A DNA stretch of 64,000 nt from Clostridium sp. BNL1100 (GTDB lineage: Bacteria; Bacillota; Clostridia; Acetivibrionales; DSM-1351): NCBI RefSeq assembly GCF_000244875.1, contig NC_016791.1, positions 3,353,001-3,417,000 on the forward strand, written 5' to 3'. The first letter of the stretch is position 1. Each line of letters opens with the position of its first letter. The notes under the pieces were generated by a model that saw only the letters and a program-made list of their open reading frames with translations, did not search any database and was not told the origin of the DNA. Positions 34,221 to 61,364 of this stretch are shown here, piece after piece. Position numbers and translations under genes: made by a program.

Positions 34221-35447
34221 TTAATTACTATCGGCTAATTTTTTTATATTCGGCTTTTCATCATACTTTTTACTTCTTATCATATACCCTGTAACCGCAA
34301 TAAATTGTGTTAACAGACCGAATATGCATACCCCTGTCCATGAAAAATGTGCAAGGCTGAAGGAACCCAGAAATGAACCTGTTGCCCCTCCCACAAAATA
34401 TGATACCATAAATACCATATTTATCCTGTTTCTTGCTTCATCACTTAATCCATGAACTCTTGCCTGGTTTGAAATCTGGCATGACTGAACACCTAAATCC
34501 AGCAGTATTATACCTGTTATCAGTCCCCAAAGCTTAAATCCAAGGAACAGAAAGCACAGATATGCTGCTGTTACAATAAACATCCCTATTCCCACTGTAA
34601 ATCTGGGACTTCTTTTGTCTGCGATCCTGCCCACTACAGGAGCCGCAAGAGCACCTGTTATTCCTATAAGACCAAATAATCCTGCCGCATCTGCTCCCAT
34701 TTTGTATGTAGGGCTTTGAAGCAGAAATACAAGGGTTGTCCAGAATGCACTAAAAGCACCGAACATCATAGCTCCATTAAGGGAAGCCTCCCTCAAAACC
34801 GGTAGTTCTTTAGCAAGCTTCACCATTGACTTGAACAAATCTTTATAGCTTAGGCTTGATATCCCGGGACATTCCGGTATGAATTTTCTTAAAAATACAG
34901 CCAATACCAGCATCAATACCGCAGCAATCAGATATACAACCCTCCAGCCTAAATATTCACCTATCAACCCGCTAAAGGTACGTGATAAAAGTATACCGAT
35001 AAGTAAGCCACTCATTACAGTTCCTATAATCCGGCCCCTCTCCTTCGGGTCAGCAAGCTGTGCAGCCAAAGGTACTATAAGCTGAGGTACTACAGAAGTA
35101 AAACCTATAGCAAAACCTGAAAATGCAATCATTACGATGCTATTAGAAAAAAACATTAACAAAAGGGAGCCACACGCACAACAAAGCATTGTAATTATTA
35201 ATTTTCTTTTTTCCTTTATATCTGCAAGAGGCAGTAACAATAACATTCCCAGAGCATAACCAACCTGAGTGAGCATTGCCACAAACCCAACACTTACCTG
35301 TGTAACATTAAATTCTGCTGCAATTTCCGCAAGCAAAGGCTGAATATAATAAAGGTTTGCAACAGTAATTCCGGTTGCTGCAGCCATTATCAGTACCAAA
35401 AATTTGTTTAATTTAAAGCTGTTATAAATAACGTTATCGTTTTCCAA
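34221..35447 (-). CDS. MFS transporter (drug efflux type)
   Basis: This 408-residue, twelve-segment protein opens with an ANLYYIQPLLAEIAAEF segment and has the loop motif DIKEKRKLI, typical of the Bcr/YgaY-like efflux group rather than the MefA group of its neighbours. The TTG start is preceded by AAAGGAGCAAGG and overlaps the end of the preceding MFS gene by 14 bases. The substrate is unknown. Confidence 0.85.
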   Translation of the reverse strand: MENDNVIYNSFKLNKFLVLIMAAATGITVANLYYIQPLLAEIAAEFNVTQVSVGFVAMLTQVGYALGMLLLLPLADIKEKRKLIITMLCCACGSLLLMFFSNSIVMIAFSGFAIGFTSVVPQLIVPLAAQLADPKERGRIIGTVMSGLLIGILLSRTFSGLIGEYLGWRVVYLIAAVLMLVLAVFLRKFIPECPGISSLSYKDLFKSMVKLAKELPVLREASLNGAMMFGAFSAFWTTLVFLLQSPTYKMGADAAGLFGLIGITGALAAPVVGRIADKRSPRFTVGIGMFIVTAAYLCFLFLGFKLWGLITGIILLDLGVQSCQISNQARVHGLSDEARNRINMVFMVSYFVGGATGSFLGSFSLAHFSWTGVCIFGLLTQFIAVTGYMIRSKKYDEKPNIKKLADSN

Positions 35448-36663
35448 AGAGCCTTGCTCCTTTCAATAATATAAGTATAGGAATCATTAGTACGACTATC
35501 GCTGCACCGCAAGAGACAAAACCAATCCTGGCATCAAAGACTTGTGTCATCGCACCTGCAAACAAATTACCGATTGGTGTTGAGCCTGCGAAAACCAGCG
35601 TGTAAATGCTCATTACTCTTCCCCTGTACTCATTTTCAGTATTAAGCTGTAATGCAGAGTTGGAACTTGAGCTGAACATAACGAAGAAAAAGCCTGTTAC
35701 GGCAAGTGCCAGACCTGTAAGTATGAATTTATCCGTAAATGCAATTAAAATCAGAAGCAAACCAACCACAACCGGAACGGCACGAAGTATAAACCTTTTG
35801 GGGCCTGATCTGCTGAAAGAGGCTACGTAAACAGCACCAAACAGTGAACCAACCCCCATAAAGGACATAAGATATCCGAATCCCGCTTCTTCCATATGAA
35901 GAATCTTGGACGTAAATACCGGTACCAGAACGCTGAAGTTGGGTGCAAATGTACCCACTATAGCCATAATTATTATTGTGGAGAAAAGAATTTCATTTTT
36001 TAATATGTATCTAAGTCCTTCTCCTATATTTTGAAACATTGTTTTCCCCTTTTCAACTGCCTCATTCGCTATCTTTAGGGGCTTTATGAAAAACAGGCTT
36101 ATTAATACAGCTCCAAAGCTAACTGCATTTGCAAAAAAACAAAAAGCTACACCTGAGTATTCCATTAAAATACCTGCTATTGCAGGCCCTATAATTCTTG
36201 AGATGTTAAAAACAGTGGAATTCAGAGCAATTGCATTCATAAGGTCTTCTTTCCCCACCAATTCAATTACAAAGGATTGTCTTGCAGGCATATCCAACGT
36301 ATTTGCCATTCCAAGGGCCGTAGCCATTATTATCAGGTGCCAGTACCTTATTTCCCCTGTAAAGGCTAAAATGGCGAGAAATAGTGTTATTAACATAGAT
36401 GCTGACTGAGTAATTATAAGAATTTTCTTCTTGGGAAATCTATCGATTATAACCCCGGCAAACAAGGAAAACAACAGAACAGGCAAAAATTGAAGTGCAC
36501 CTACCAACCCAAGCAAAAAGGGAGAATCAGTTAGTTTATATGCAAGTAGAGGCTGGGCTATATTCTGCATCCATGTTCCTATTTGTGAAATACACATTCC
36601 GAACCAATAATACCTGAAATTTTTATGCCTCAATGATATAAACGGGTTGTTTAAATTTGCCAA
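35434..36663 (-). CDS. MFS transporter (EntS/MFS_3 type)
   Basis: This 409-residue, twelve-segment exporter begins [17 protein letters not shown] and contains the loop motif [13 protein letters not shown]. The TTG at 36663, preceded by AAGGCGG at 5-base spacing, is chosen over an upstream ATG without a site. EntS-like members export siderophores or drugs; no siderophore genes are seen here. It begins the three-gene MFS run. Confidence 0.84.
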
Positions 36664-36756
36664 TTGACCGCCTTCTTTCCAGTCTAACTGATAAATATTA
36701 TACAATCAAACAACCAAACTCTTCAACTATTTATATCCTCCGTTTTTTTACAGAAC

Positions 36757-37201
36757 TGTCTTATTACTCATTTGTTGCCTTATATGGAGTCAATCTGAAG
36801 CCTGATTATATTGAGAGAGCTTGCGATGCGTCCCTCAAAAGACTTAATACCGATCACATCGATGTATACCAGCTTCATGAAGGGAATATATTAATATCCG
36901 ATGTGGAACCCGTATGTATGACTCTTGACAAGCTTGTTAAAAAGGTAAGATTCGTACATATGGTTGGAGTACAGATTTTATTGATGGTGCTAAATTATTT
37001 GCAGAAAGACCCAATTGTTCTGTTATTCAGTACTGCTTAAATATTTTTGAGGATGCTCCGCAATTAGTTAAATTCTATGCCTGTTCCGGATTTAAAACCA
37101 TAAAGCAGGTTCAAGAAAACGCAAAAGCAATCCAATTTTGGTCCTTTATCTCAGCTCAAATGGATGAGATAGATGGAATTCTCTATCACAAAACTAGGTA
37201 G
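36757..37201 (+). pseudogene. Decayed aldo/keto reductase
   Basis: Plus-strand sequence in two frames still reads as an aldo/keto reductase. The first part ([16 protein letters not shown], then [10 protein letters not shown]) runs in one frame. After an A5 run at 36939-36943 the match continues in another frame ([18 protein letters not shown]); one extra A would restore the frame. The N-terminal third is missing, and about 100 residues are absent between [11 protein letters not shown] and the C-terminal GFKTIKQVQENAKAI. It is a non-functional remnant lying among MFS genes. Confidence 0.8.
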
Positions 37202-37218
37202 TATATCTGTTTATGTTG

Positions 37219-37251
37219 GGGCTTGTAAGTAATATTTGGGCTTACAAGCCC
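37219..37251 (-). terminator. Hairpin after the fourth MFS gene
   Basis: GGGCTTGTAAG pairs perfectly with CTTACAAGCCC around an 11-base loop; the T-tract is weak. Confidence 0.4.
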
Positions 37252-37268
37252 TATACTCAATTGTTGAT

Positions 37269-38498
37269 TTATACCTGTGTACTGGGTTTTCCCGCTTCTA
37301 AAAGAACCTTGTTCAAATATAGTGCAATTCCGATAAACACAATAAATAATCCTGTAATCCTCAGCAGCCACTCTATTCTTATATAATCCGCCAGAGGGCC
37401 AAACACAAGCATACCTGCAGGCATCATAGAGCTGGTTATCATGGACATAACTCCAAATACCCTGCCCATGTACTCCTCTTCAACCTTTTCCTGCAGCAGA
37501 ACAGTAGAAGGAATATTAAAAGCAGGCATTGATAAACCTATTGCTCCCATAAAAAACAGATATATCCAAAATACCGGTACTATGCCCAAAACTATGGTAC
37601 AAATGCCGGTTATTAATGTGGATAATGCCATGGTGTAGGCTTTGTTTTTAAATCCTCCCCATGACGCCATTATAATTCCGCCCAGACTCATACCAACGGA
37701 AAATACTATTTCAATTGCAGTAAGTCTCCACACATCGTTTCCAAAAGTCCTTGTAACCTGAAGAGGTGTCAGGAATGATGCCGGGGCTGCTAATATTAAA
37801 AATAATGCTACAAATATAAAAAATGTTTTAAGGTATCTATGGTTTTTTGTATAGATAAGCCCCTCATGGAAATCCTTGAAATAGCCACCAGAGCGTTTAT
37901 CCACAGCTTTTGCATGTACAGGGACATGTAAAAATAAAAGCAGAACCAAAACCCCTATTATTGCAGTAACAACGTCAATGAAAAATATAACTTTTATGGA
38001 GGTTACACTCATTAATGCACCGCTTAGCATTGGTGATGCAAGCATAACCAATGCTTGTATACTGCCGTTTATTCCATTTACTTTGGTGAGGTTTTCTTGG
38101 GGTACTATCTGAGGTATAAAAGCACCTACCGTAGGTGTCTGAACTGCCGTTCCCAGTGCCCTTATTGCAAGGACCACAAAGAGCAACCACATACTGTCGT
38201 ATCCGGCCATAAACAAAATGGCCATTATAAGCGTAGCCAGTGCTATTAAACTATCAGATACCATTATAAGTACTTTGCGGTTATATCTGTCTGCCCATAC
38301 GCCTGCGAAGGGTGAAAGGAAAAATGTCGGTACGAAGCCACAGATAATGGATATGGTCATCATTATACCAGACTGTGTAGTCATGGTTATATACCATATA
38401 ATGGCATACTGAACCAATGATGAGCCCAATAATGATATGGTCTGACTAGTCAAAAATAATACTATATTTCTGTTCCAATTATTGCTTAAATTACTCAC
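37269..38498 (-). CDS. MFS transporter (MFS_3 type)
   Basis: This 409-residue, twelve-segment protein begins NIVLFLTSQTISLLGSSLVQ and has the loop motif DRYNRKVLIMVSD. It is of the MefA-like group and not identical to the three MFS proteins on the other side of the pseudogene. The GTG start is preceded by GGAGG about 10 bases upstream. It lies just downstream of the ApbE gene on the same strand. The substrate is unknown. Confidence 0.85.
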   Translation of the reverse strand: MSNLSNNWNRNIVLFLTSQTISLLGSSLVQYAIIWYITMTTQSGIMMTISIICGFVPTFFLSPFAGVWADRYNRKVLIMVSDSLIALATLIMAILFMAGYDSMWLLFVVLAIRALGTAVQTPTVGAFIPQIVPQENLTKVNGINGSIQALVMLASPMLSGALMSVTSIKVIFFIDVVTAIIGVLVLLLFLHVPVHAKAVDKRSGGYFKDFHEGLIYTKNHRYLKTFFIFVALFLILAAPASFLTPLQVTRTFGNDVWRLTAIEIVFSVGMSLGGIIMASWGGFKNKAYTMALSTLITGICTIVLGIVPVFWIYLFFMGAIGLSMPAFNIPSTVLLQEKVEEEYMGRVFGVMSMITSSMMPAGMLVFGPLADYIRIEWLLRITGLFIVFIGIALYLNKVLLEAGKPSTQV

Positions 38499-38584: not shown

Positions 38585-39637
38585 TTATTTATTTAGATAT
38601 CTATCGAAATTCTTACTATACTTTATTTTACCGTCTTTCGTAACCCACAGTGCCTCAGTATCAGGCAAAGAGTCTATCAATTTGTTTCCCTGTTCAAAAG
38701 GCATATTGAAAATGGCAGTAGATAATACATCAGCCATGCCTGAATCATGGGTGACTATAGTAACTGCTGAAAAGTATTCAGATGGAAATAGTGTATTGGG
38801 GTCTATTATATGGTGATACCTTTTACCGTTAACGGTATAGTATCTTTCATAATCTCCGCTTGAAACTACTGATTTATCTGCTACATATATGAGCTTTAAG
38901 GTTGAGTTTTCGCTTTCTGTGTCAGGATTCTGTATTCCAAGATTCCACAGCTGACCGTCAACACCCTTGTTTCCTATGGAACGTATATTTCCGCCCACGC
39001 TTATAAGTCCTGATTTAAAGCCATTTTTCTCAGCAATCCGGCTGACCTGCTCTGTTGCATATCCTTTGCCAACAGCTCCTACATCCAGACTCATTTCAGG
39101 ATCTTCCAGATAAACGGTAGAGTTTTTTTCATCTATTTTAACTTTATTTATATCCGTATGTTGTAATGCTTTCTTTAATATATCCATAGGAGGTATTTCG
39201 GCATTTTCTTCATTATCCAAACCTGCCGTACGGTAATCATGCCATATTTTTAAAACAGCACCGAAGGCAATGTTCATTTTACTGTCGGTTTTTTTATACC
39301 AATCCTTTGAAAAAAGCAGTAGGTCTATTATTTTTTTATCTACCTTAACAGGCTTTTTTCCTGCATTATCATTAATAGTCTTTATATTGTTCTTTCCGGG
39401 ATAAACATGATATATATCATATAATTCATGATATTCTTTAAGGTTATCATATATGAGCTGAGAATACTTTGTGAATTCTTCTTTGGATTCAGTATAGGCA
39501 ACAATTTTTGTTACAGTATCAAACAACACAAGAAATTCTGCCTCATATCTGGTTTTCTTTTTTTCTCCGCATGCCGTAAGATTTATGGAAAATGCCAGTA
39601 TAAGTATTATCGCTGTCAGTTTTTTTAACGTTTTCAT
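38585..39637 (-). CDS. apbE: FAD:protein FMN transferase, lipoprotein
   Basis: This 350-residue lipoprotein has the lipobox NLTAC and the ApbE signatures DVGAVGKGYATE and GLISVGGNIRSIG, and later SSGDYERYY. ApbE takes FMN from FAD and links it to a threonine (or serine) of extracytoplasmic target proteins. The gene directly upstream encodes a two-domain FMN-binding lipoprotein, a natural substrate, and the wider operon encodes an Ndh2/EetA/EetB-type system in which this protein is called FmnB. A hairpin in the 149-base gap may lower its expression relative to the carrier. Confidence 0.92.
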   Translation of the reverse strand: MKTLKKLTAIILILAFSINLTACGEKKKTRYEAEFLVLFDTVTKIVAYTESKEEFTKYSQLIYDNLKEYHELYDIYHVYPGKNNIKTINDNAGKKPVKVDKKIIDLLLFSKDWYKKTDSKMNIAFGAVLKIWHDYRTAGLDNEENAEIPPMDILKKALQHTDINKVKIDEKNSTVYLEDPEMSLDVGAVGKGYATEQVSRIAEKNGFKSGLISVGGNIRSIGNKGVDGQLWNLGIQNPDTESENSTLKLIYVADKSVVSSGDYERYYTVNGKRYHHIIDPNTLFPSEYFSAVTIVTHDSGMADVLSTAIFNMPFEQGNKLIDSLPDTEALWVTKDGKIKYSKNFDRYLNK

Positions 39638-39688
39638 TTTATATTAGCCTCCGTAAGCCATTCGGCACTTTTTTCATATCAAAAATTA

Positions 39689-39730
39689 AGCTTAAACGCA
39701 CGCTTTTTTAGCAAAGCGTGCAATTTAAGC
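39689..39730 (-). terminator. Hairpin between the FMN-lipoprotein and apbE genes
   Basis: GCTTAAA plus GCACGCTTT pairs with AAAGCGTGC plus TTTAAGC, with a short T-run on the minus strand. A partial terminator that favours the upstream gene is likely. Confidence 0.55.
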
Positions 39731-39786
39731 ATTGAATTTGTATTGATATTTATATTATTTGTGGATGAATTGTTTTAATTCAATAA

Positions 39787-40866
39787 TTATTTAGCATTTG
39801 CAGCTGCCTTAGCTATAACAGCCTGGTAGTCACCAATGTGGATAGTTACGGAGCTAGTCAATTCTGCCTGTGAAGGTACTCCTTCTGCATTAACTGCGAT
39901 ACCTTTGATTTCATCAATTGTCTTTCCTACAGCATATTTTGCAAGAGCTTCAGTCTGTTCAAACCATTCTTTTTTAATCTTTGAAGCCTTAGCAAGACCG
40001 TAATCTGCTCCAAGTTCGATTTTAGTCTTTAAAGGAGCTTTTAAGTCTGAAGTGATTTTTCCAGCCTTTGAGAAGTTTACATCTGACTGTGAAGCATCAA
40101 TGATACAGCTTGTTACTTTACCATCTGCACCAAATGTTGTAGCTGTGTAGTTTGAGTAAGCCTGTGCTACTCCGTCTTTTTCACCTGCATCAGTTGACTT
40201 GCTGATGTTTGTAGTAACACCAAGACCAAGCTTGTCTCCGGCTTTTGCACCAAGATCTTTCGCATTATTAACTGCCTTTTCAATTGCAGCAGTAAAGTCT
40301 GCAATATGTATTGACACTGTAGCTGAAAGTTCTTTATCGGATGGAACACCTTCTGCATTTACAGCTATTCCCTTTACTTCAGCAACTGTTTTACCTACAA
40401 CATACTTTGCGAAAGCATCGGCTTGTTCATTCCACTCTTTACCTATTTTAGAAGCTTTGCCTAAACCATATTCAGTTTTCAATTCCTGCTTTGATTTGAA
40501 TTCAGTTTTTAAGTCAGTAGTAAGTTTACCTGCTGCTGAAAAATTAATCTTTGTTTGTGCCGCATCAATAGCACACTTAACAATTTTACCGTCTTTATCT
40601 ACTGTAACTGCAACAACAGTTGAATCAACCTGTCCAAGACCATCTTCTTTTCCAGCATCTTTGGATTTTGCTATTGATGAAATAACAGCAAGTCCGGTTT
40701 TAACTGCGTCTCCATTTGCTTCACTGCTTACAGCTGCAGTAGAACTGCTTGCAGAAGTAGATGTAGCGGAATTTGTTGAATTACTTGTTTCGGATGATGA
40801 ACCACAGCCGGCTAGAAGTGATACAGCCAGAACCGAGCTCATTACTAGCGAAATAATTTTTTTCAT
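39787..40866 (-). CDS. PplA-like lipoprotein with two FMN-binding domains
   Basis: This 359-residue lipoprotein (lipobox LLAGC, C21) has a Ser/Thr-rich linker to about residue 50 and two tandem repeats of about 150 residues (about 55-200 and 210-359). Both share KGIAVNAEGVPS and an INFS/VNFS-.AGK segment. The first repeat has DKELSAT (177-183), close to the ApbE target motif D-x-x-(S/T)-(G/S)-A-T, making T183 the likely FMN site. The second has QAELTSS (333-339), with S339 in that place. In Listeria PplA carries electrons out of the cell through covalent FMN. Downstream lies apbE; upstream lie the eetB- and eetA-like genes. AGGAGG precedes the ATG. Confidence 0.85.
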   Translation of the reverse strand: MKKIISLVMSSVLAVSLLAGCGSSSETSNSTNSATSTSASSSTAAVSSEANGDAVKTGLAVISSIAKSKDAGKEDGLGQVDSTVVAVTVDKDGKIVKCAIDAAQTKINFSAAGKLTTDLKTEFKSKQELKTEYGLGKASKIGKEWNEQADAFAKYVVGKTVAEVKGIAVNAEGVPSDKELSATVSIHIADFTAAIEKAVNNAKDLGAKAGDKLGLGVTTNISKSTDAGEKDGVAQAYSNYTATTFGADGKVTSCIIDASQSDVNFSKAGKITSDLKAPLKTKIELGADYGLAKASKIKKEWFEQTEALAKYAVGKTIDEIKGIAVNAEGVPSQAELTSSVTIHIGDYQAVIAKAAANAK

Positions 40867-40901
40867 AAGTAGTCCTCCTATATAATTGTGTATGTTTTTA
40901 T

Positions 40902-41429
40902 TTAAACCAGCTTTTTAAGGGCCGGTAAAATAAACCTGAGTAAGGTAGATGTTGCTATCCCTGCGATTACTCCTGCAACTAAAAGCACAGGCAGATAAAC
41001 CCAAAGATACATGTTTGTATAAAGAATTGATATAATAATAAACTGGCCCACATTATGGGATACTGACCCAAAGATACTTAGAATCAGATATGAAACTCTA
41101 TCCTTAAAAACAAATACCAGCAGTGCCATTACAGCTATGGATAAAACTCCTCCGCCAAGGCTTAGTAAGCCTGCTATCGGTCCTCTTGTAGACAATACGA
41201 ACAGTGCCTTTAAAACAGCAATTGTAAATGCTTGCCTCTTGTATAGAAAGAATAGCGCAAACATTACTGCAATGTTTGAAAGTCCAAGCTTTATACCGGG
41301 AATTCCTGCGGATATAGGCGGAAAAGAATTCTCAACTACAGAAAGCACCAAGGCAACAGCAAAAAGTAATGCAGTAAGAACCAGTTGTTTAGTTTTTGTC
41401 ATACTGTTCCTTGAATTATTCATGAGCAA
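40902..41429 (-). CDS. eetB: EetB-like Gx-transporter family membrane protein
   Basis: This 175-residue protein has about five membrane segments and belongs to the family annotated as Gx transporter or heptaprenyl diphosphate synthase component I (PF07456). A segment near residues 40-52 reads ISAGIPGIKLGLSN. In Listeria a member encoded beside eetA is EetB, needed for flavin-based extracellular electron transfer; its exact job is unclear. The TTG start is preceded by AAAGG. It sits 11 bases after the EetA-like gene and before the FMN-lipoprotein gene. The gene symbol is given from context and should be read as provisional. Confidence 0.78.
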   Translation of the reverse strand: MLMNNSRNSMTKTKQLVLTALLFAVALVLSVVENSFPPISAGIPGIKLGLSNIAVMFALFFLYKRQAFTIAVLKALFVLSTRGPIAGLLSLGGGVLSIAVMALLVFVFKDRVSYLILSIFGSVSHNVGQFIIISILYTNMYLWVYLPVLLVAGVIAGIATSTLLRFILPALKKLV

Positions 41430-41440
41430 TATTGACCTTT

Positions 41441-41836
41441 CTATTTTCCTATTATCATGTCTATATCATCATCACTGCGGTTATTATTTTGAGGTACTAT
41501 TTTAAGAAAAACTTCATTGGGAAGGCATGCAGCAGTCTGTCCCACCTTGTCAAGCCACCCTGTATTTATGCAGATCTTATCCGGACAGTCTGAATCTTCA
41601 AAACGTATCCTGCCGTTGGCAGTAAGATGAAATACTACATGGTCGCTTTGGGGTATGCTGAAGGTTTTATCCTTACCCTTAGACAAATCAACGGTTTCAA
41701 TCAGTTGTGATTTATAGTATATTTCTGCTTTAGCGGGTTTTTTTGAAAAGGAGCTGTTATACACAGCCCACAAGACTCCTCCGGATATTAGAATTATTAA
41801 TATTATTAAGATGTCGGACTTTTTAGCAAATTTCAT
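41441..41836 (-). CDS. eetA: EetA-like NusG-II domain protein
   Basis: This 131-residue protein has one N-terminal membrane segment (about residues 8-25) and an extracytoplasmic NusG domain II-like region with a conserved pair of cysteines in DSDCPDKICINTGW and a third in TAACLPN. This is the small form of EetA-type proteins, membrane-bound partners in flavin-based extracellular electron transfer. AAGGAGT precedes the ATG. It follows the prenyltransferase gene by 18 bases. The symbol rests on domain type plus operon position, and is provisional. Confidence 0.76.
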   Translation of the reverse strand: MKFAKKSDILIILIILISGGVLWAVYNSSFSKKPAKAEIYYKSQLIETVDLSKGKDKTFSIPQSDHVVFHLTANGRIRFEDSDCPDKICINTGWLDKVGQTAACLPNEVFLKIVPQNNNRSDDDIDMIIGK

Positions 41837-41854
41837 ATTAACTCCTTAATTACC

Positions 41855-42763
41855 CTAGAATAACAATCCTCCTATAAAAATCAGCAATGATATAGAACCC
41901 ATTATAAGTACATAATTTTTTATGGAAACAATAAAAGTTGTTGCTTTATCCTGCTTCTTGAAAAACAGGTTTATGTTTTTCTGTACCGGATATAACGAAA
42001 TTAATAAAAACAGACTTACCCAAGGTAATTTGCCCAGCGCAACCATGAGTATGATATCCAGATACACCAGATAATACAACCCGGCAAACAGATAAACTGC
42101 TTTTCCTTTACCCAAATAGTAGGGCAGTGTAAACCTCTTTACCGTAATATCCCTTTCAAGGTCACATATATTATTTGCCAGCATTATATTTGCTGTAGTA
42201 CATACAGGTGGTATCGAAAGCAGAACTACTGTAATTAAAGGCATAATGTTCAATTGCAGATTTATTGCTGTAAAACTAACGCTAAAATTCAAAAGGGTTC
42301 CATTTGGAAGGTTTATATACAGAAGAATAAACGGTATAAGTAAACCATAAAATAATCCCGAAAAAATCTCTCCCAAAGGCTGCCTTGATATTGGTATAGG
42401 CCCGAAGGTGTACAGAATACCGCACATGAAACATACAGCACCAATAAGCAGTACTACCACATCACTGAGATATGCAAGATATAAACCAAGTGCCGTACTT
42501 ATACCCAGCATTACATATATAATAGCAAGAGCAGTTTTCCTTTTAAATCCAAGTGATTGATGATTGGTCTTTGAATCTATATAGTTATTTATTGCAGTAG
42601 TAGTCATATCAAATATGAACATTGATGCAAAAAATATCAACGTAAGCTGCCAGTTAACAGGATTTCCTATATAGAACAAATAAGCCATTGTAATAAGAAA
42701 TGCAAATGTACTGGTTATCTTAGTCTTTATCTCAACATAATTCAATAATCTGCCAATCACCAT
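41855..42763 (-). CDS. UbiA-family prenyltransferase, MenA-like
   Basis: This 302-residue, multi-spanning protein has the first aspartate-rich prenyl-diphosphate motif in the segment FDMTTTAINNYIDSKTNHQS and a second in NICDLERDI. UbiA enzymes attach a polyprenyl chain to a quinone head group. The neighbours suggest a MenA/DmkA-type role that yields demethylmenaquinone for electron transfer. The ATG at 42763 follows AAGAGGTGAT; an upstream ATG at 42778 has no site. No other menaquinone genes are visible, so the rest of the pathway must lie elsewhere. Confidence 0.85.
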   Translation of the reverse strand: MVIGRLLNYVEIKTKITSTFAFLITMAYLFYIGNPVNWQLTLIFFASMFIFDMTTTAINNYIDSKTNHQSLGFKRKTALAIIYVMLGISTALGLYLAYLSDVVVLLIGAVCFMCGILYTFGPIPISRQPLGEIFSGLFYGLLIPFILLYINLPNGTLLNFSVSFTAINLQLNIMPLITVVLLSIPPVCTTANIMLANNICDLERDITVKRFTLPYYLGKGKAVYLFAGLYYLVYLDIILMVALGKLPWVSLFLLISLYPVQKNINLFFKKQDKATTFIVSIKNYVLIMGSISLLIFIGGLLF

Positions 42764-42803
42764 ATCACCTCTTTTCATCTCATTTTAATTTTCATATTTA
42801 ACA

Positions 42804-44813
42804 TTAATCATTGTAAATATACCATTTTCTGACTACAGGGAGCTTTTTCCACTGTCTTTTCAAGAACGGCATTACATAATAATCAAGTCCGAAGGTTCTT
42901 CCGGCACCAATTAATACGGCAATTCCGGCAAATATCATCCAGAAAGTACCCAAATACAAACCAGTTGTACACACAAACATAAACTGCAATATAAGTGATA
43001 CTGCTGAAGCCGGTGTGGTGAACAAACCTCCTATCAATGCAAGACCTATTAAGATTTCGGCTATTACGATTGAAATCTGCATAAACATCTGTATAGAATC
43101 ATTTGCAAGTATAACTTTATAAACAAAAGTATTCATAAGCGGTATATCAAGTCTGAATGCAAAATCACTTAATGCAGACTCTGCAAGCTGCTTGCCGCTA
43201 ACAAATATAACACGGAAAAGGTGTAAGAAATCAAAGTTAATTATTGTTGTTCCTATCTTGTTGATTCCTTCTGCAACTGCTTCCCCGCCTCCTGCAGTTG
43301 TAGCCGAAGAAACTGCTTCTACAGCGGCCTTTCCTGCTTCACCGGTTGCACCGCTTGTCCCTTCTGTCACACCCTTGAGAATACTGTCATACCAACCGTT
43401 AGCTCCTCCGAAGAATCCTTCCAGATGCGGCTTGTTAAACCAGCCCTCAACTATCTTCATAATACCTTCAAAGAGCCAAACTGCACCAAGCCATACTCTC
43501 AGAGCCACAAGCAAAAAGCTTGGTGTTCTGTTAGAGAAATGTCCCCCAACGAAGCTTCTGCAATTTCTTATTGTAAAGAATTCATGTTTTATATAGCTGA
43601 ATATCTTGTTCCAGCCAAGTACCTGTATAAAATAAATAATATTTATAAAGTGTTTTGCAAACATCGCAAGAAAAGATGGCAGATTGAACATAAAGTTTGG
43701 CAATCCAACTCTTGCTACACCGTATCTTCCTCCTACACATACCATCATTCCGTGGAAGGAAGGCTTGTAAGCTGTCATTTCGCCTTTACCTGTAATAGCA
43801 CTGTAAATATTCTTTGCTACAACTGCCGCACTTTGTTCACAGTTCTCTACCATCTGCGGAACAGGTCTTTCCTCTCCTTCAGCTGTAAAGAGCATATTGT
43901 CTCCAACTACGTATACATGGTCGTTATCAAGTGAACGCAAGTATGAATCAAGCTTTATACGACCTCTTGCAGCAGATTGAAGAGTTTTTGCAGCCTCGTT
44001 GGTAATATCGGAGCTTTCGATACCCGCCGCCCATATAACTGTTCCGGCAGTATGTCTTGTAACCTTGTCCCCATTTTTGGTTTCAATAAAGTCCGCTCCG
44101 ACTCCTACAACACCATTATTAAGCATCATGGTAACGCCCATTTTCTTCAAGCGGTTTTCTACCTTGTTTGAAAGCTTTTCAGGCAAGTTAGGAACTGTAC
44201 GTGTCAATACGTCAACGTTGTATATACTTACGTCTTTTCTGTCTATTTCATATTTTTCACATAGGACAGGAACATATTCCGCAAGTTCCCCTACCATTTC
44301 AACTCCTGTAAAGCCTGCTCCGACAACATGGAAAGTCAGAAGTCTCTTTTTCTTTTCAGGATTTGTTTCTGTAGCAGCCTTTCTAAAGCAGTTATGAATA
44401 TGTTCTCTTAAATTAACAGCATCATCGAATGACCAGAGCTTATGGGAAAATTCCTCAGCACCGGGTACACCAAAATATGTCGGTTTTGAACCTGCTGCCA
44501 GTACAAGGTATTCATATTCATATGTGCTGCAGTTTCCGGTAACCTTATTATTTTCAAAATCAATGGATTCTACGGTATCCAGTACAACATTAACCTTTCT
44601 GCCTGCAAACACCTTACTCAAGCTGATTTTAATACTATCTTCATCAACACGATTTGCAGCTACCTCATGCAGTTCGGTGAGCATTGTATGAAACGGATTT
44701 TTATCAATAATAGTGATATTTACATCATCATTCTTTTTAAATTTTTTAGCCAGTTTCTTAGCAGTGAGTATTCCCGCATATCCTGCACCAATAATTAGTA
44801 TTTTGCTTTTCAA
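42804..44813 (-). CDS. ndh2: Type II NADH dehydrogenase with C-terminal membrane domain (Ndh2 of EET type)
   Basis: This 669-residue protein has an FAD Rossmann motif IIGAGYAG at residues 7-14, a second NADH-binding motif VVGAGFTGVEMVGE near 170 and the VYVVGD motif near 310. After about residue 400 it has a membrane-spanning DoxX-like extension of about 250 residues with several hydrophobic segments. Ordinary Ndh ends near 400 residues; the extra membrane tail marks the Ndh2 used in flavin-based extracellular electron transfer. It would pass electrons from NADH to a membrane quinone. A TTG start follows GGGGGAG. It is the first gene of the six-gene minus-strand unit. Confidence 0.88.
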   Translation of the reverse strand: MKSKILIIGAGYAGILTAKKLAKKFKKNDDVNITIIDKNPFHTMLTELHEVAANRVDEDSIKISLSKVFAGRKVNVVLDTVESIDFENNKVTGNCSTYEYEYLVLAAGSKPTYFGVPGAEEFSHKLWSFDDAVNLREHIHNCFRKAATETNPEKKKRLLTFHVVGAGFTGVEMVGELAEYVPVLCEKYEIDRKDVSIYNVDVLTRTVPNLPEKLSNKVENRLKKMGVTMMLNNGVVGVGADFIETKNGDKVTRHTAGTVIWAAGIESSDITNEAAKTLQSAARGRIKLDSYLRSLDNDHVYVVGDNMLFTAEGEERPVPQMVENCEQSAAVVAKNIYSAITGKGEMTAYKPSFHGMMVCVGGRYGVARVGLPNFMFNLPSFLAMFAKHFINIIYFIQVLGWNKIFSYIKHEFFTIRNCRSFVGGHFSNRTPSFLLVALRVWLGAVWLFEGIMKIVEGWFNKPHLEGFFGGANGWYDSILKGVTEGTSGATGEAGKAAVEAVSSATTAGGGEAVAEGINKIGTTIINFDFLHLFRVIFVSGKQLAESALSDFAFRLDIPLMNTFVYKVILANDSIQMFMQISIVIAEILIGLALIGGLFTTPASAVSLILQFMFVCTTGLYLGTFWMIFAGIAVLIGAGRTFGLDYYVMPFLKRQWKKLPVVRKWYIYND

Positions 44814-44842: not shown

Positions 44843-44889
44843 TCCTACTTTATTCTACATTTTTCTACACATTTCTACACTATTCTATC
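44843..44889 (-). repeat. 10-bp-phased direct repeats before ndh2
   Basis: The plus-strand sequence TTCTACA occurs at 44853, 44863 and 44873, with variants TCCTACT at 44843 and TTCTATC at 44883. The spacing is exactly 10 bases. It lies 30-80 bases upstream of the ndh2 start and could be a regulator-binding array. Confidence 0.7.
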
Positions 44890-45000
44890 AAAGGAATAAT
44901 AAATAATCAATCAAATTGTTAAATTGTAAACACACCAAATATTTACATAGGATGCACCCGTACAGCCCGTTGGTATATAGCACAATTAACTATAAAAAAA

Positions 45001-51561: not shown

Positions 51562-52617
51562 ATGATTATCGGACTTTTGATTGTACTAGCATTAATATTG
51601 ATACTACCCTTTGTATTTAAGCCCATAGAGCATAATCTGGAGTACTTTCTGCTTGTTATGGGAGTTGCAGCAACATTAATTTCAGGTACACTCTCTACAG
51701 GCTTACTTCTGCATATATTCGAAAACTATCTTCTTTATTTTATAACCGGTGCAGTGCTGGTGGCCGGATTTATTTTCAGGATTTCAGTGGGCAAAATCAA
51801 GAAATTTGTAGGATATGCCACAGAGCGTTTACCTATAAGCATCTTTGTTTTTCTGCTAATAATAGTCCTAGGTCTGGTTTCCAGTCTGATTACAGCTATA
51901 ATCGCCGCTTTGATACTTGTTGAGATAGTGCACGCCCTACCGTTCAAGCACAGTCAGAAGGTAAAGCTAACTGTAATATCCTGTTTTGCAATTGGTTTGG
52001 GTTCAGCCCTTACTCCTATCGGAGAGCCTCTTTCAACTATTGTTGTATCCTCTTTGAAAGCCGATTTTACGTATCTTTTCAGAAACATAGGTATATATGT
52101 TATTCCCGGAGTCCTTGTTATGGCAATACTAGGAGCTGTGGTTGCAAGAATGATGCATAAGGCAAACCAAAATGAAATTGTGGGTGAAAATAGCTGGAAG
52201 GACGAAAATGAAGGGGTTTTGGAACTGGAAAGCATAAAAGCAGTATTTATTCGTGCCATAAAAATATTTTTATTTATAATAGCTTTAGAACTGCTGGGTT
52301 CCGGGTTTAAGCCCCTTATAAACACATATGTCATTCATTTGCCCAGCATGGTTTTATACTGGATAAATATATCTTCTGCCGTACTGGACAATGCAACACT
52401 TGCAGCTGCCGAGGTAAGCCCTGCTATGAGTACTAAACAGATTCAGGCGATTCTTATGGGGCTGCTGCTAAGCGGTGGAATGCTTATTCCCGGCAATATT
52501 CCGAATATTATATCCGCAGGGAAACTGGGTATCAAGAGTCGTGAATGGGCAAAAATCGGACTTCCTCTGGGTTTGGTACTGCTTATTATTTATTTTTTAG
52601 TAGTATTCTTTATATAG
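51562..52617 (+). CDS. DUF1646-family cation permease
   Basis: This 351-residue protein has about ten hydrophobic segments. Two inverted-repeat-like signature regions (SALTPIGEPLSTIVV near residue 148 and MLIPGNIPNIISAGK near 310) resemble the ion-transporter fold of NhaD/ArsB-type antiporters. The length and motif fit DUF1646, a putative Na+ transporter family. GGAGG precedes the ATG. The leader and 30-residue peptide ORF upstream support regulated ion transport. The substrate is inferred from family knowledge. Confidence 0.78.
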   Translation: MIIGLLIVLALILILPFVFKPIEHNLEYFLLVMGVAATLISGTLSTGLLLHIFENYLLYFITGAVLVAGFIFRISVGKIKKFVGYATERLPISIFVFLLIIVLGLVSSLITAIIAALILVEIVHALPFKHSQKVKLTVISCFAIGLGSALTPIGEPLSTIVVSSLKADFTYLFRNIGIYVIPGVLVMAILGAVVARMMHKANQNEIVGENSWKDENEGVLELESIKAVFIRAIKIFLFIIALELLGSGFKPLINTYVIHLPSMVLYWINISSAVLDNATLAAAEVSPAMSTKQIQAILMGLLLSGGMLIPGNIPNIISAGKLGIKSREWAKIGLPLGLVLLIIYFLVVFFI

Positions 52618-54516: not shown

Positions 54517-55623
54517 TTAAACATTGCTTGACTTTATAATATAATCCAGATAAATATTTACAGGTCGTGTCTCAGAATCACCACCGGCGATAATATGAGT
54601 ATGGTTTCCATTATTATCCGTTACTTGACCTGAAGGATAATTGGCAACTTCATGGCCTGCGCAATAATTTTCTATATATTTATCCTGTGGCAGTTTGGGA
54701 GCGCTGTGAGTATGGGCACCGTCTGTTGATAAAGAAAAATTAGAGGTTCTTGGAAGAGAGGTTGAATAATCCTCTGTTTGCCCGACTCTGGTTGATCCAT
54801 GTACTCCTGACGTATCTGATGTATTTGAGTTTACACCTCGTACAAATAATCCTCTAAGATCCGGTACATTGAAATTGGTCTGATCTCCTCCGTATATATT
54901 GCAAATATTTTCATAAAGTTCAGGATATTTACTAACTTCATATGAACTGCCTACACATGGTAGCCAGCCGTTGGCAATCAGGTTATTGCTCTGATTTATT
55001 GCATCTCCTGCAAAGGAGACAATAGACCCTGCTGCTAATAACATAGCCTCATCATAGTCAGCTGAAGTGAATTTTATAATCCAATACATATACAGGTTTG
55101 CAGGTCTGGTTTCGCTGTCCCCGCCGGATATAATAGTATGAGAATGTTGTCCACCTTCTCCTGATGTAGCTGTACGTCCCGGGAAATTGGCACCTTCATT
55201 ATCGGTTATGGCACATGCGGCATTCCAGTAGTCTGTCGGCAGATGGTCAACAGAGTGGTTATGAGTACCCTGATCGTTTGTTATAAAGTTATTCTTTGGC
55301 TTGGCTGTTGCATAATCCTGAACCGAGCCCGTATTGTCTCCGGCCGCTGCTCCTGACCTTACCGCCTTACGTTGCTGTACATCAGGGTCATACCCTCTTC
55401 CATGATCGGTTGCACGGACAAATCTTCCTCGAAGATCAGGTATATAAAAATTAGGAATACCATCTCCTCCATATTTTGTTCCTATTACATTAAACAGTTC
55501 TGAATATTGTGTTTTATCTAACACTCTTCCGTCACAAGGAAGCCAGCCGGAAGATTTCAACTGGTCTTCTTTAAGTGGTCCGGCAAAAGGTATAACAATA
55601 CCTACGGGAAATTTTAAAGGCAT
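54517..55623 (-). CDS. Protein with two phage tail-collar domains (MdpB-like)
   Basis: This 368-residue protein has two tandem tail-collar domains (about residues 1-180 and 190-368). Each has a GWLPC segment and the FYIPDLRGRFVR or FNVPDLRGLFVRG motif, with GGDSETRP repeats near the ends. Such proteins are annotated as microcystin-dependent or tail-fibre-like, and usually make secreted or phage-tail-related assemblies. No phage genes are near. It lies 26 bases downstream of a one-domain homologue. Function unknown. Confidence 0.85.
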   Translation of the reverse strand: MPLKFPVGIVIPFAGPLKEDQLKSSGWLPCDGRVLDKTQYSELFNVIGTKYGGDGIPNFYIPDLRGRFVRATDHGRGYDPDVQQRKAVRSGAAAGDNTGSVQDYATAKPKNNFITNDQGTHNHSVDHLPTDYWNAACAITDNEGANFPGRTATSGEGGQHSHTIISGGDSETRPANLYMYWIIKFTSADYDEAMLLAAGSIVSFAGDAINQSNNLIANGWLPCVGSSYEVSKYPELYENICNIYGGDQTNFNVPDLRGLFVRGVNSNTSDTSGVHGSTRVGQTEDYSTSLPRTSNFSLSTDGAHTHSAPKLPQDKYIENYCAGHEVANYPSGQVTDNNGNHTHIIAGGDSETRPVNIYLDYIIKSSNV

Positions 55624-58611: not shown

Positions 58612-59415
58612 ATGATTATTACAATAAACGGAAAAAGAATGGATATCAAATTCAGAACAGCTTTTGAGGTGCGACGTGAATTTGGCAAGGAAACTGACAT
58701 AGTAATTTTAAACGGCTTCCAGATAGACACGGATTGCCAGCTTTCCGAGAACGACACCCTTGCTGTTATTCCCAAGGGTTGCATGCCTGACAGGGATGAA
58801 CTTGAAAGCATGATGATGGCACGACATACTCCAAATGTTCATAAAAAGTTGAAAGAAGGCCGTGTTGCCATTGCCGGGCTTGGCGGACTGGGTTCAAACA
58901 TAGCTGTCATGCTTGCAAGAATTGGTGTTGGCCACCTGCTTCTGGTAGATTTCGACGTGGTGGAGCCAAGCAATCTTAACAGACAAAGTTATTACATTAG
59001 TCATTTGGGTATGGAAAAGACTGCTGCTCTTAAAATGCAGCTCAAGGAAATTAACCCTTTCATAACCGTTGAAACACAGACCGTACGTGTAACAGAAGAT
59101 AATGTATGTGAGCTATTCAGGGACTACGGTATTATTTGTGAAGCCTTTGACAAACCGGAAGCTAAGTCCATGCTGGTCAATACTGTTCTGGAAAGGCTTC
59201 CGGGCAGTAAGATTGTTGCTGCCTCCGGCATGGCAGGATATGAAAGCTCAAATATTATTAAAACCGTAAGGCGAATGAAGGGTTTTTACCTGTGCGGTGA
59301 CTTTGAAAACGGAGCAGGTATCGGCCATGGTCTGATGGCGCCACGTGTACAGATTTGCGCCGGACATCAGGCCAACATGATTCTGAGGCTGCTCCTTGGG
59401 ATTGAAGATGTATAA
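58612..59415 (+). CDS. thiF: ThiF adenylyltransferase with N-terminal ThiS-like domain
   Basis: This 267-residue protein has a ubiquitin-like domain at about residues 1-65 that lacks a terminal diglycine (reads PKGC), then an E1-like Rossmann domain with IAGLGGLGSN near residue 86 and an aspartate in LLVDFDVVEPSNLNRQ. It adenylates the ThiS C-terminus. The fused ThiS-like domain is found in clostridial ThiF proteins. GGAGGAGG precedes the ATG. Confidence 0.9.
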   Translation: MIITINGKRMDIKFRTAFEVRREFGKETDIVILNGFQIDTDCQLSENDTLAVIPKGCMPDRDELESMMMARHTPNVHKKLKEGRVAIAGLGGLGSNIAVMLARIGVGHLLLVDFDVVEPSNLNRQSYYISHLGMEKTAALKMQLKEINPFITVETQTVRVTEDNVCELFRDYGIICEAFDKPEAKSMLVNTVLERLPGSKIVAASGMAGYESSNIIKTVRRMKGFYLCGDFENGAGIGHGLMAPRVQICAGHQANMILRLLLGIEDV

Positions 59416-59436
59416 ATAAACTACATATGGAGGTAA

Positions 59437-60213
59437 ATGAATTTTATGAATGATAAGTTAGTTATAGGCGGACATGAATTTGAATCAAGATTTATACTTG
59501 GCTCAGGAAAATTTTCTTTAGATATGACCAAGGCGGTCATTGAAAATGGAAATGTTGAAATGGCAACTCTTGCTCTTCGCCGTGCTAATGTTGGCGGTGA
59601 AGAAAATATTCTGGACTATATGCCGGAGGGTATAACTCTGCTTCCAAACACCTCAGGAGCCAGAAATGCCAATGAAGCTGTAAGAATAGCACGGCTTGCC
59701 AGAGAAATCGGCTGCGGAGATTTTGTAAAGGTCGAAGTGGTAAATGACTCGAAATATCTCATGCCGGACAATTACGAAACAATTAAGGCAACTGAGATTC
59801 TGGCAAATGAGGGCTTCATCGTAATGCCGTACATGTATCCCGACCTTAATGCAGCCAGAGCCATGGCGGAAGCCGGTGCAGCAGCAATTATGCCTCTTGC
59901 CGCCCCAATAGGTAGCAACAAGGGCCTTAGTACCAAGGACTTTATTCAAATCCTCGTGGACGAGATTAATTTACCGATTATTGTTGATGCGGGAATAGGC
60001 CGTCCGTCACAGGCATGTGAAGCAATGGAAATGGGTGTGGCTGCAATTATGTGCAATACTGCAGTTGCAACAGCTGGTGATGTGGCCTTAATGGCAAAAG
60101 CCTTTCGACTTGCAATTGAAGCAGGGCGTGCGGCTTACCTTTCAGGCCTAGGAAGGATATTAACCTACAAAGCGGAAGCATCCAGTCCCTTGACGGGCTT
60201 TTTGGAGGATTAG
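59437..60213 (+). CDS. thiG: Thiazole synthase
   Basis: This 258-residue beta/alpha barrel protein matches ThiG, with the GSGKF start region, a PNTSGARN segment, and the [18 protein letters not shown] phosphate motif near residue 185. It builds the thiamin thiazole from deoxyxylulose phosphate, dehydroglycine and ThiS thiocarboxylate. The ATG at 59437 lies 3 bases after GGAGG, and a second ATG at 59446 lies at 12 bases; both are possible. It begins 21 bases after thiF. Confidence 0.92.
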
Positions 60214-60215
60214 TT

Positions 60216-61364
60216 ATGGAAAAAACAAATCACATGGAATATCAAAATGGCATGGAGGCAATTGATTCCAATATAATGAATCAGGTTCTGAGTCTTACAA
60301 GTGAATACGACTATAGCAGGTATACCGACGGGGATGTTGAAAAAGTCCTGATGAAATCACGGCTATCCATAGATGATTATGGAGCTGTACTTTCTCCTGC
60401 CGCCGCACCTTTTCTCGAATATATTGCACGTAAGGCAGCAATGGAAACAAGAAAGCATTTTGGTAACTCAGTCAACATGTTTACACCTTTGTATATAGCA
60501 AACTACTGTGAGAATCATTGTGTTTACTGTGGCTTTAATTGTCATAATAAAATTCGTCGTGGAAAGCTTAACCCTGAGGAAATGGAGGAAGAACTGAAAG
60601 AAATCGCATCAACCGGGCTACGGGAGATATTAATATTAACCGGAGAAGCCCGTAATGCTTCAGGAGTTCAATATATCGGGGATGCCGTAAAGCTTGCATC
60701 CCGGTATTTTTCTACTGTGGGACTTGAAATATATCCTCTTAACTCAGATGAATATACATACTTACGTGAGTGCGGAGCGGACTTTGTCTGTGTCTATCAG
60801 GAAACATACAATACCGACAAGTACCAACAGGTTCACCCAAGCGGACCAAAGAGGATTTTCCCGTACAGGTTCAATGCTCAGGAGCGTGCGTTACTTGGAG
60901 GTATGAGGGGCGTTGCGTTTGGTGCTTTACTAGGTCTGGATGATTTCCGCAAAGATGCCTTTGCAGCAGGCCTTCATGCTTATTTCATTCAACAAAAATA
61001 CCCTCATGCAGAGATTTCATTCTCTGTTCCCCGGCTAAGACCATTTATAAATAATGAAGAGAATAATCCAAATGACGTACATGAAAAACAGCTTTTGCAA
61101 GTTATGCTTGCCTATAGGCTTTTCATGCCTTTTGCAGGGATTACTATTTCTACAAGGGAAAGAGCAGGTTTTCGTGACAATGTGGTGGGACTTGCAGCCA
61201 ACAAGATTTCGGCAGGGGTAAATGTAGGCGTAGGAGGCCACAAAAATGACGAAAAAGGCGATGAACAATTTGAAATCAACGATAGCAGAAGTGTTGAGCA
61301 GGTTCATGAAATGATTTTGTCAAGAGGCTTACAGCCTGTTTATTCAGATTACATCAGAGTTTAA
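60216..61364 (+). CDS. thiH: 2-iminoacetate synthase ThiH
   Basis: This 382-residue radical SAM enzyme has the cluster motif CENHCVYC (C98, C102, C105) and the later TGE motif. It cleaves tyrosine to dehydroglycine and p-cresol for ThiG, and its presence fits an anaerobe, where ThiO (oxygen-using) is not expected. It starts 2 bases after the thiG stop, and TTGGAGG precedes the ATG. Confidence 0.92.
   Translation: MEKTNHMEYQNGMEAIDSNIMNQVLSLTSEYDYSRYTDGDVEKVLMKSRLSIDDYGAVLSPAAAPFLEYIARKAAMETRKHFGNSVNMFTPLYIANYCENHCVYCGFNCHNKIRRGKLNPEEMEEELKEIASTGLREILILTGEARNASGVQYIGDAVKLASRYFSTVGLEIYPLNSDEYTYLRECGADFVCVYQETYNTDKYQQVHPSGPKRIFPYRFNAQERALLGGMRGVAFGALLGLDDFRKDAFAAGLHAYFIQQKYPHAEISFSVPRLRPFINNEENNPNDVHEKQLLQVMLAYRLFMPFAGITISTRERAGFRDNVVGLAANKISAGVNVGVGGHKNDEKGDEQFEINDSRSVEQVHEMILSRGLQPVYSDYIRV

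Follow-up and report, generated by a model that had tools for sequence, protein, structure and literature searches.

We analyzed a window of 64,000 nucleotides (the whole stretch examined) from the 4.61 Mb, single-contig genome of Clostridium sp. BNL1100 (NC_016791.1, positions 3,353,001 to 3,417,000), in which six consecutive minus-strand genes encode a type II NADH dehydrogenase (Ndh2), a MenA/DmkA-like prenyltransferase, EetA, EetB, a two-domain lipoprotein and the flavin transferase ApbE. The reading that we favor, and regard as fairly probable, is that these genes form an electron-export module resembling the flavin-based extracellular electron transfer (FLEET) system, that the module runs on scavenged 1,4-dihydroxy-2-naphthoate (DHNA), and that its ApbE and lipoprotein are a divergent pair.

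In such a module, Ndh2 would oxidize NADH and reduce a demethylmenaquinone-type quinone, and the quinol would hand electrons to flavin mononucleotide (FMN) on the lipidated two-domain surface protein. This protein would reduce outside acceptors (soluble flavins, quinones and ferric iron), and NAD+ would thereby be regenerated outside the fermentation pathways. EetB and a shared T/A module of the energy-coupling factor (ECF) type would export flavin adenine dinucleotide (FAD) for the extracellular ApbE, which would attach FMN to the lipoprotein. DHNA would be scavenged, and MenA would add a prenyl tail from a HepT encoded at a second locus.

The operon and its distribution

Open reading frames and family matches confirm the six-gene operon that an earlier note, made from the sequence alone, had proposed at 38585-44813 of the window, together with its gene identities. 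The order is ndh2, menA/dmkA, eetA, eetB, lipoprotein gene and apbE, with intergenic gaps of 25, 18, 11, 35 and 149 bases, respectively. The Pfam matches are ApbE (3.7e-69), PF07456 (1e-37), NusG_II (3.1e-26), UbiA (5.6e-16) and Pyr_redox_2 (2.4e-36). Residues 2-382 of Ndh2 match 4nwz, a solved FAD-dependent pyridine nucleotide-disulfide oxidoreductase (8.9e-61), with NDH-2 entries ranking below; hydrophobic segments follow this oxidoreductase part at 433-451 and 580-643, in agreement with the membrane tail described in the earlier note. ApbE has an N-terminal hydrophobic segment.

The window-type Ndh2 is present in all ten other genomes of the genus and in 19 of 393 genomes of the class (E <= 1e-150), a count that includes the window's genome and seven of its genus. 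The closest named relative by Ndh2 is Ruminiclostridium papyrosolvens C7 (98%), which suggests that the organism is itself a Ruminiclostridium, and related Ndh2 proteins are found in Ruminiclostridium, Butyrivibrio, Pseudobutyrivibrio and Anaerocolumna, among others. A scan of named genomes with Ndh2 found 106 relatives, of which 80 loci were kept and searched by tblastn with the window's genes and the HepT from the second locus of the window's genome. Matches were obtained for hepT in 75 loci, menA in 67, the lipoprotein in 66, apbE in 60, eetB in 52 and eetA in 42; contig ends explain some of the misses, and divergence of EetA or EetB may explain others. The order ndh2-hepT-lipoprotein-apbE is kept in 59 of the 80 loci, with variable placement of menA and eetAB. 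Eleven loci have the full arrangement ndh2-hepT-menA-eetA-eetB-lipoprotein-apbE, and another 24 carry menA on the opposite strand, upstream of ndh2; in the remaining arrangements eetAB follows apbE or is not detected by tblastn. Of the 66 loci with the lipoprotein, 60 also have ApbE. This recurrence of the gene set argues that the grouping is not due to chance. In one fragmented genome (L016, G048:C39) the Ndh2 match carries one in-frame TAG.

Source of the quinone

The best NCBIfam models for the window's UbiA-family protein are 1,4-dihydroxy-2-naphthoate polyprenyltransferases, with 252.8 and 251.6 bits (cut-offs 316 and 289), and the classical menA model TIGR00751 gives only 22.6 bits. Residues N64, N65, N202, N203, D206, D210 and R215 are invariant in 37 of 37 aligned orthologues, and D68 is kept in at least 90% of them. 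Although it falls below the NCBIfam cut-offs, the protein is thus predicted to be a DmkA-type DHNA prenyltransferase.

Synthesis of the quinone head group was assessed with MenD (TIGR00173), MenB and MqnA/D (PF02621), scored against the model cut-offs. The MenD and MqnA/D searches covered 19 genomes with a related Ndh2 plus 60 others; the two sets share four genomes (L022 = G001, L035 = G041, L082 = G010 and L097 = G004), giving at most 75 distinct ones. Within the set of 60, menA is matched in the locus of 46 genomes and unmatched in four, and ten were picked by Ndh2 alone. Among known genomes used as controls, the cut-off was exceeded in 7 of 14 for MenD, 7 of 14 for MenB, and 4 of 14 (run with the 19) and 3 of 14 (run with the 60) for MqnA/D.

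In the window's genome, MenD, MenB, MqnA and MqnD are all below cut-off. MenD exceeds its cut-off in none of the 19 genomes and in two of the 60 (Clostridium sp. KNHs205, L042, and Muricomes intestini, L065), with a sub-cut-off match in a third (Butyrivibrio sp. FCS014, L056). MenB is over cut-off in none of 14 genomes (the 11 of the genus and these three), and the match in FCS014 reaches 139.7 bits (cut-off 342.7). MqnA/D is over cut-off in none of the 19, with four sub-cut-off matches including one in the window's genome (22.3 bits versus 26), and has no match at 1e-8 in the 60.

Weaker MenD matches were rejected as evidence for a quinone pathway. At E 0.001 all 19 genomes match (best 79.9 versus a cut-off of 244.2 bits), as do 14 of 14 controls, seven of them below cut-off. 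The MenD matches among the 60, over and below cut-off, were also rejected because all three genes adjoin a polysaccharide pyruvyl transferase or UDP-galactopyranose mutase gene (neighbors identified by Pfam). These MenD-like thiamine diphosphate enzymes (L128, L129 and L130), with glycan gene neighbors and no MenB over cut-off, possibly catalyze a different reaction in glycan synthesis.

The earlier note took the gene set for a full one, which would imply a quinone of the cell's own, and listed a genome empty of quinone pathways among the grounds for refuting its reading; the search of the window's genome for men and futalosine-pathway genes returned no marker over cut-off and does not support this implication. 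The missing markers change the mechanism and not the class of the module, because Lactiplantibacillus plantarum, a quinone auxotroph with a FLEET module, is reported to perform extracellular electron transfer (EET) on exogenous DHNA (PMC8837199, PMC10746273). The strong conservation of MenA in bacteria for which no head-group synthesis is known suggests that they import a precursor. The window's genome would thus have no known pathway to the head group, and DHNA is probably scavenged from neighboring cells. Quinone dependence has also been reported for a gut Faecalibacterium strain without menaquinone genes, yet there DHNA gave no rescue (PMC5738691).

The locus has no DmkB/HepT gene, in line with the earlier note, which saw none in the window. 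In this genome, as in four close relatives (G002, G005, G006 and G009), ndh2 is followed directly by menA without hepT, and in the other six genomes of the genus a hepT match follows ndh2. A search of the window's genome for polyprenyl synthases, as the earlier note had suggested, found two genes. The one at 2.567 Mb is presumably a farnesyl-type enzyme, judged by its length. The other, at 2.165 Mb, adjoins a second ndh2 in an EET-like block, ndh2b / apbE2-eetA2-eetB2-hepT, that contains no menA or lipoprotein gene. This block lies at C1 2161011-2165839 (L113:11012-15840), with ndh2b divergent, and is followed by priA-, def- and fmt-like genes (read by eye). The pairing of hepT with ndh2b is also found, by coordinates, in G005, G006 and G009, and G002 has a synthase of like size without an ndh2b match; all five genomes lacking hepT in the main locus therefore encode a synthase of that size elsewhere. 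We infer that the distant HepT supplies the prenyl tail used by the window's MenA.

A lipoprotein with a predicted, divergent flavinylation site

The lipoprotein (359 residues) has a lipobox, whose C21 is invariant in 51 of 51 aligned sequences, and two homologous domains that are 57% identical to each other. These features bear out part of the earlier description as a two-domain FMN-binding lipoprotein; neither domain reaches the gathering cut-off of Pfam FMN_bind (PF04205), and the standard flavinylation motif is absent, a point that, like the unusual ApbE, the earlier note does not mention. We therefore class the protein as PplA-like and not as PplA.

The proposed link to FMN_bind draws on a profile match, on a fold comparison and on intermediate sequences. 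In the profile match, a stretch of 2kzx that passes the FMN_bind cut-off has an SGAT motif whose Thr aligns with the conserved Thr of the window's lipoprotein. The best VIA fold match to the lipoprotein model is 3o6u, which carries TGAT; RnfG and NqrC are not among the VIA matches listed, and IscU rows in the same comparison were taken as a shared arrangement only. The intermediate sequences carry SGVT, SGVS, TGVS or AGVS; two of them (L169 and L172) pass the FMN_bind cut-off and two (L170 and L171) fall below it.

The motif was studied in 64 window-type lipoproteins, the window's own and 63 from the 80 loci. A regular expression located 126 sites, each with T or S at its end, mostly as SVT or SVS, and in the alignment the columns of Ser185 and Thr341 hold T or S in 51 of 51 sequences in both domains. 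The residues ahead of this final Thr/Ser vary, giving a window-type motif x-[A/S]-[S/G/T]-V-[T/S], at the last residue of which FMN is probably attached. By sequence, the domains look like divergent FMN_bind relatives that have lost [S/T]GA[S/T] and kept its final Thr/Ser.

Each of the 11 genomes of the genus has one full-length match to the lipoprotein. Further candidate paralogues were rejected as compositional, since they match no more than roughly the first 110 residues, a region made up of the signal peptide and a Ser/Thr-rich linker. Elsewhere in the genome (C1 4244502-4245937, L136:3003-4438), a third ApbE adjoins an FMN_bind protein, small and anchored in the membrane, that carries an ordinary SGAT.

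A distinct clade of ApbE

Across the 60 ApbEs of the loci, the window's own among them, Ser260, His276, Arg265 and Lys191 never vary, and 59 of the proteins have Asp303; these are the equivalents of the FmnB triad and Arg262 (as described in PMC8906456). Two other positions differ from those of comparison enzymes: the Gly of DPxTGxP is Leu in 59 of 60 (one Gln), and the Asp of KGYAxD is Glu or Gln in 59 of 60 (one Ser). Gly and Asp are both kept in five comparison ApbEs, two from the window's genome and three from SGV/AGV-type loci, and in all five solved ApbEs among the matches listed, of which 7esa is one that we take to be Listeria FmnB. Of 29 short loci taken around the lipoprotein in a phylum-wide sample, 21 yielded an ApbE, with Leu (20) or Phe (1) at the first position and Glu (20) or Gln (1) at the second, never Gly or Asp. 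The four ApbEs of SGV/AGV-type loci all have both Gly and Asp.

In a FastTree phylogeny of 88 ApbEs, 81 window-type proteins form a group that a branch of length 1.40 (support 1.0) separates from the remaining seven; a re-rooted version showed a value of 0.217 there, which we took as a mislabeled edge. Because both changes sit on this single branch, they represent one correlated event and not many. The enzyme and its lipoprotein target seem to have changed together. This raises the further possibility, to which we give somewhat less than an even chance, of a separate flavinylation code: an ApbE clade (DPxTLxP, KGxAx[E/Q]) orthogonal to other ApbEs, and an FMN site that drifted from [S/T]GA[S/T] through SGV[T/S] to x[A/S][S/G/T]V[T/S], in hosts that take their quinone head group from neighbors.

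Flavin supply

The earlier note reported that no RibU/FmnA flavin transporter was visible in the window, and RibU is indeed not there. In Listeria, EetB is reported to bind FAD and to be an ECF S subunit needed with FmnA and the ECF ATPases for FAD export; RibU serves uptake and is dispensable for export, and so was ruled out as the missing exporter (PMC9973259). By analogy, the transporter noted as missing would be partly present, as the EetB of the operon. For the ECF-T subunit (FmnA), CbiQ/EcfT has no match within the window's range and four elsewhere in the genome, none linked to the operon. One of these (L138) adjoins two ATPase-like genes and an S component (read by eye), the latter TrpP-like by Pfam. 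The search for RibU that the earlier note suggested did yield a riboflavin-type ECF S component at another place in the genome (L135, about 1.299 Mb), beside an ordinary FMN_bind lipoprotein. This lipoprotein, directly upstream (C1 1298364-1299841, L135:4365-5842), has an ASAT-type motif.

Alternative explanations

Several results weigh against the reading that we favor. The lipoprotein domain showed no profile match to RnfG-type FMN_bind alignments, Foldseek gave no PDB match at E 0.001 with either the full model or a single domain, and [S/T]GA[S/T] occurs at the site in none of the 64 lipoproteins (two contain it, both outside the site). In a Klebsiella fumarate reductase, a G-to-A or an A-to-V change on its own brought flavinylation down to about 50% (PMC12052999), so that drift of the motif is conceivable; the combined change could also abolish flavinylation. 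By tblastn, eetA and eetB are detected in only 42 and 52 of the 80 loci, the locus has no ECF-T gene, and four of the 50 named genomes in the MenD survey have no menA match in the locus, ten more having been chosen by Ndh2 alone. L. plantarum dmkA, eetB/dmkB and eetA mutants are reported to keep DHNA-dependent EET, somewhat reduced (PMC10746273), and Listeria ΔeetA to have no EET phenotype (PMC9973259). Therefore, dmkA, eetB and eetA may matter less than the model says.

The motif data would fit a lipoprotein without covalent FMN, whose site has decayed, with ApbE serving another target or only hydrolyzing FAD and soluble flavin or quinone shuttles carrying the electrons. Besides the loss of the motif in 64 of 64 proteins and the lack of a Pfam FMN_bind match, the genome encodes two ordinary FMN_bind proteins, and L. 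plantarum ΔpplA reportedly still gives wild-type current (PMC8837199). We regard this as unlikely, as the final Thr/Ser is kept at 126 of 126 sites though the preceding residues vary, and ApbE, its catalytic residues intact, is present in 60 of 66 loci with the lipoprotein. Neutral drift on one branch, with no functional link between the ApbE and motif changes, is a serious contender that we nevertheless doubt. All 81 window-type ApbEs do share one long branch, a single correlated event; against drift, Leu/Phe and E/Q are each held in 80 of 81 across many families, and the SGV[T/S] intermediates retain Gly and Asp (4/4).

Conservation of MenA without known DHNA synthesis would also be expected if the cell made its head group by an unknown route and were self-sufficient. 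This appears quite improbable to us, since the tested classical and futalosine markers are absent, no alternative gene set is seen in the locus, and known auxotrophs with a FLEET module are reported to use external DHNA (PMC10746273). The sub-cut-off scores of MenA would allow that it acts on another aromatic acid, in a module with another redox purpose such as iron assimilation or surface redox defense, and for E. faecalis a role of EET in iron acquisition has been proposed (PMC8837199). None of the six operon genes is an iron-uptake gene, and the best models are still DHNA prenyltransferases, far above other menA models, which makes this alternative very unlikely. A FLEET-like module fed by scavenged DHNA is the reading that we retain.

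Regulatory and neighboring features

The features of the operon are listed in Table 1. A 276-base gap with a promoter-like site precedes ndh2; the region holds 38 such sites, not clearly more than shuffles do (28.3, standard deviation 6.2). The 149-base gap ahead of apbE forms a strong hairpin (z -4.12), and the expression level of apbE may for this reason differ from that of the rest of the operon. No FMN riboswitch was found at the operon at Rfam gathering scores.

Table 1. Coordinates of the operon and its features within the window
Feature	Position	Strand	Description
ndh2	42804..44813	-	type II NADH dehydrogenase, C-terminal membrane tail, 669 aa, TTG start
menA/dmkA	41855..42778	-	predicted UbiA-family DHNA prenyltransferase
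eetA	41441..41836	-	NusG domain II protein, one membrane segment
eetB	40902..41429	-	PF07456 membrane protein; putative FAD-exporting ECF S subunit by homology to Listeria (PMC9973259)
PplA-like lipoprotein	39787..40866	-	two divergent FMN_bind-like domains
Ser185 codon	40312..40314	-	predicted FMN site, domain 1; position calculated from residue number
Thr341 codon	39844..39846	-	predicted FMN site, domain 2; position calculated from residue number
Intergenic hairpin, lipoprotein gene/apbE	39638..39786	-	possible attenuator, z -4.12
apbE	38585..39637	-	predicted extracellular flavin transferase, TL/E-Q clade
ApbE Leu283 codon	38789..38791	-	Gly in comparison ApbEs; position calculated from residue number
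Promoter-like site upstream of ndh2	44882..44910	-	9/12, extended -10

Directly downstream of the operon are three MFS transporter genes (Pfam MFS_1/MFS_3, 34221-38498, minus strand). The sole Rfam match in the window is a Na+ riboswitch (RF03071, 51265-51319, plus strand, 64.1 bits), with a DUF1646 gene downstream (51562-52617, plus strand); DUF1646 is the partner given in the Rfam description of RF03071. Thiazole synthesis genes at 58612-61364 (plus strand) encode ThiF with a ThiS-like part, ThiG, and a radical SAM protein with a BATS domain, which is ThiH-like by context. The gene at 54517-55623 (minus strand) encodes a protein with two phage tail collar domain stretches.

Relation to known systems and implications

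The likeness to the Listeria locus drawn in the earlier note is borne out by gene content. With the FLEET system of Listeria monocytogenes the window shares Ndh2, a DmkA-type prenyltransferase, EetA, EetB, a two-domain lipoprotein and an ApbE/FmnB that agrees in its catalytic residues. It differs in having no DmkB or ECF-T (FmnA) gene in the locus, in the lack of detectable DHNA synthesis in the genome, and in an ApbE in which Leu and Glu take the place of the Gly and Asp of solved ApbEs. The lipoprotein also lacks the two SGAT motifs reported for a Listeria orthologue (PMC7074142). As no DmkB/HepT is encoded in the locus, we class it as FLEET-like and not as a complete FLEET. The L. plantarum module likewise operates without head-group synthesis; it belongs to another class of bacteria, the window has the altered ApbE/lipoprotein pair, and the window's dependence on DHNA is a prediction. 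From the FMN_bind family (PF04205; RnfG, NqrC, 2kzx and 3o6u), to which the 2kzx alignment and 3o6u fold match would connect them, the window's domains differ by having no Pfam match and no Gly-Ala in the motif.

For an iron-reducing Clostridium, a flavinylation-based, quinone-linked electron export has been proposed that uses a NosR-ApbE module; this involves a NosR-type FMN_bind membrane protein, and the main text of that paper uses neither of the terms EetA and FLEET (PMC13134045). Modules combining the lipoprotein, ApbE, Ndh2 and prenyltransferase have been reported in Clostridia too (PMC7074142). The class of module is therefore known, and the divergence of motif and ApbE and the systematic lack of DHNA synthesis appear to be new: among the open-licence papers listed, judged by title and the start of the abstract, none addresses the motif change or DHNA dependence of clostridial EET loci.

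If the proposed reading is true, searches with FMN_bind or SGAT fail to recognize lipoproteins of the window's type, and a second, possibly orthogonal, flavin-attachment system would exist. A set of fermenting Clostridia would own a respiration-like outlet that works only with DHNA from their neighbors, which would make quinone cross-feeding a possible control point of fermentation balance.

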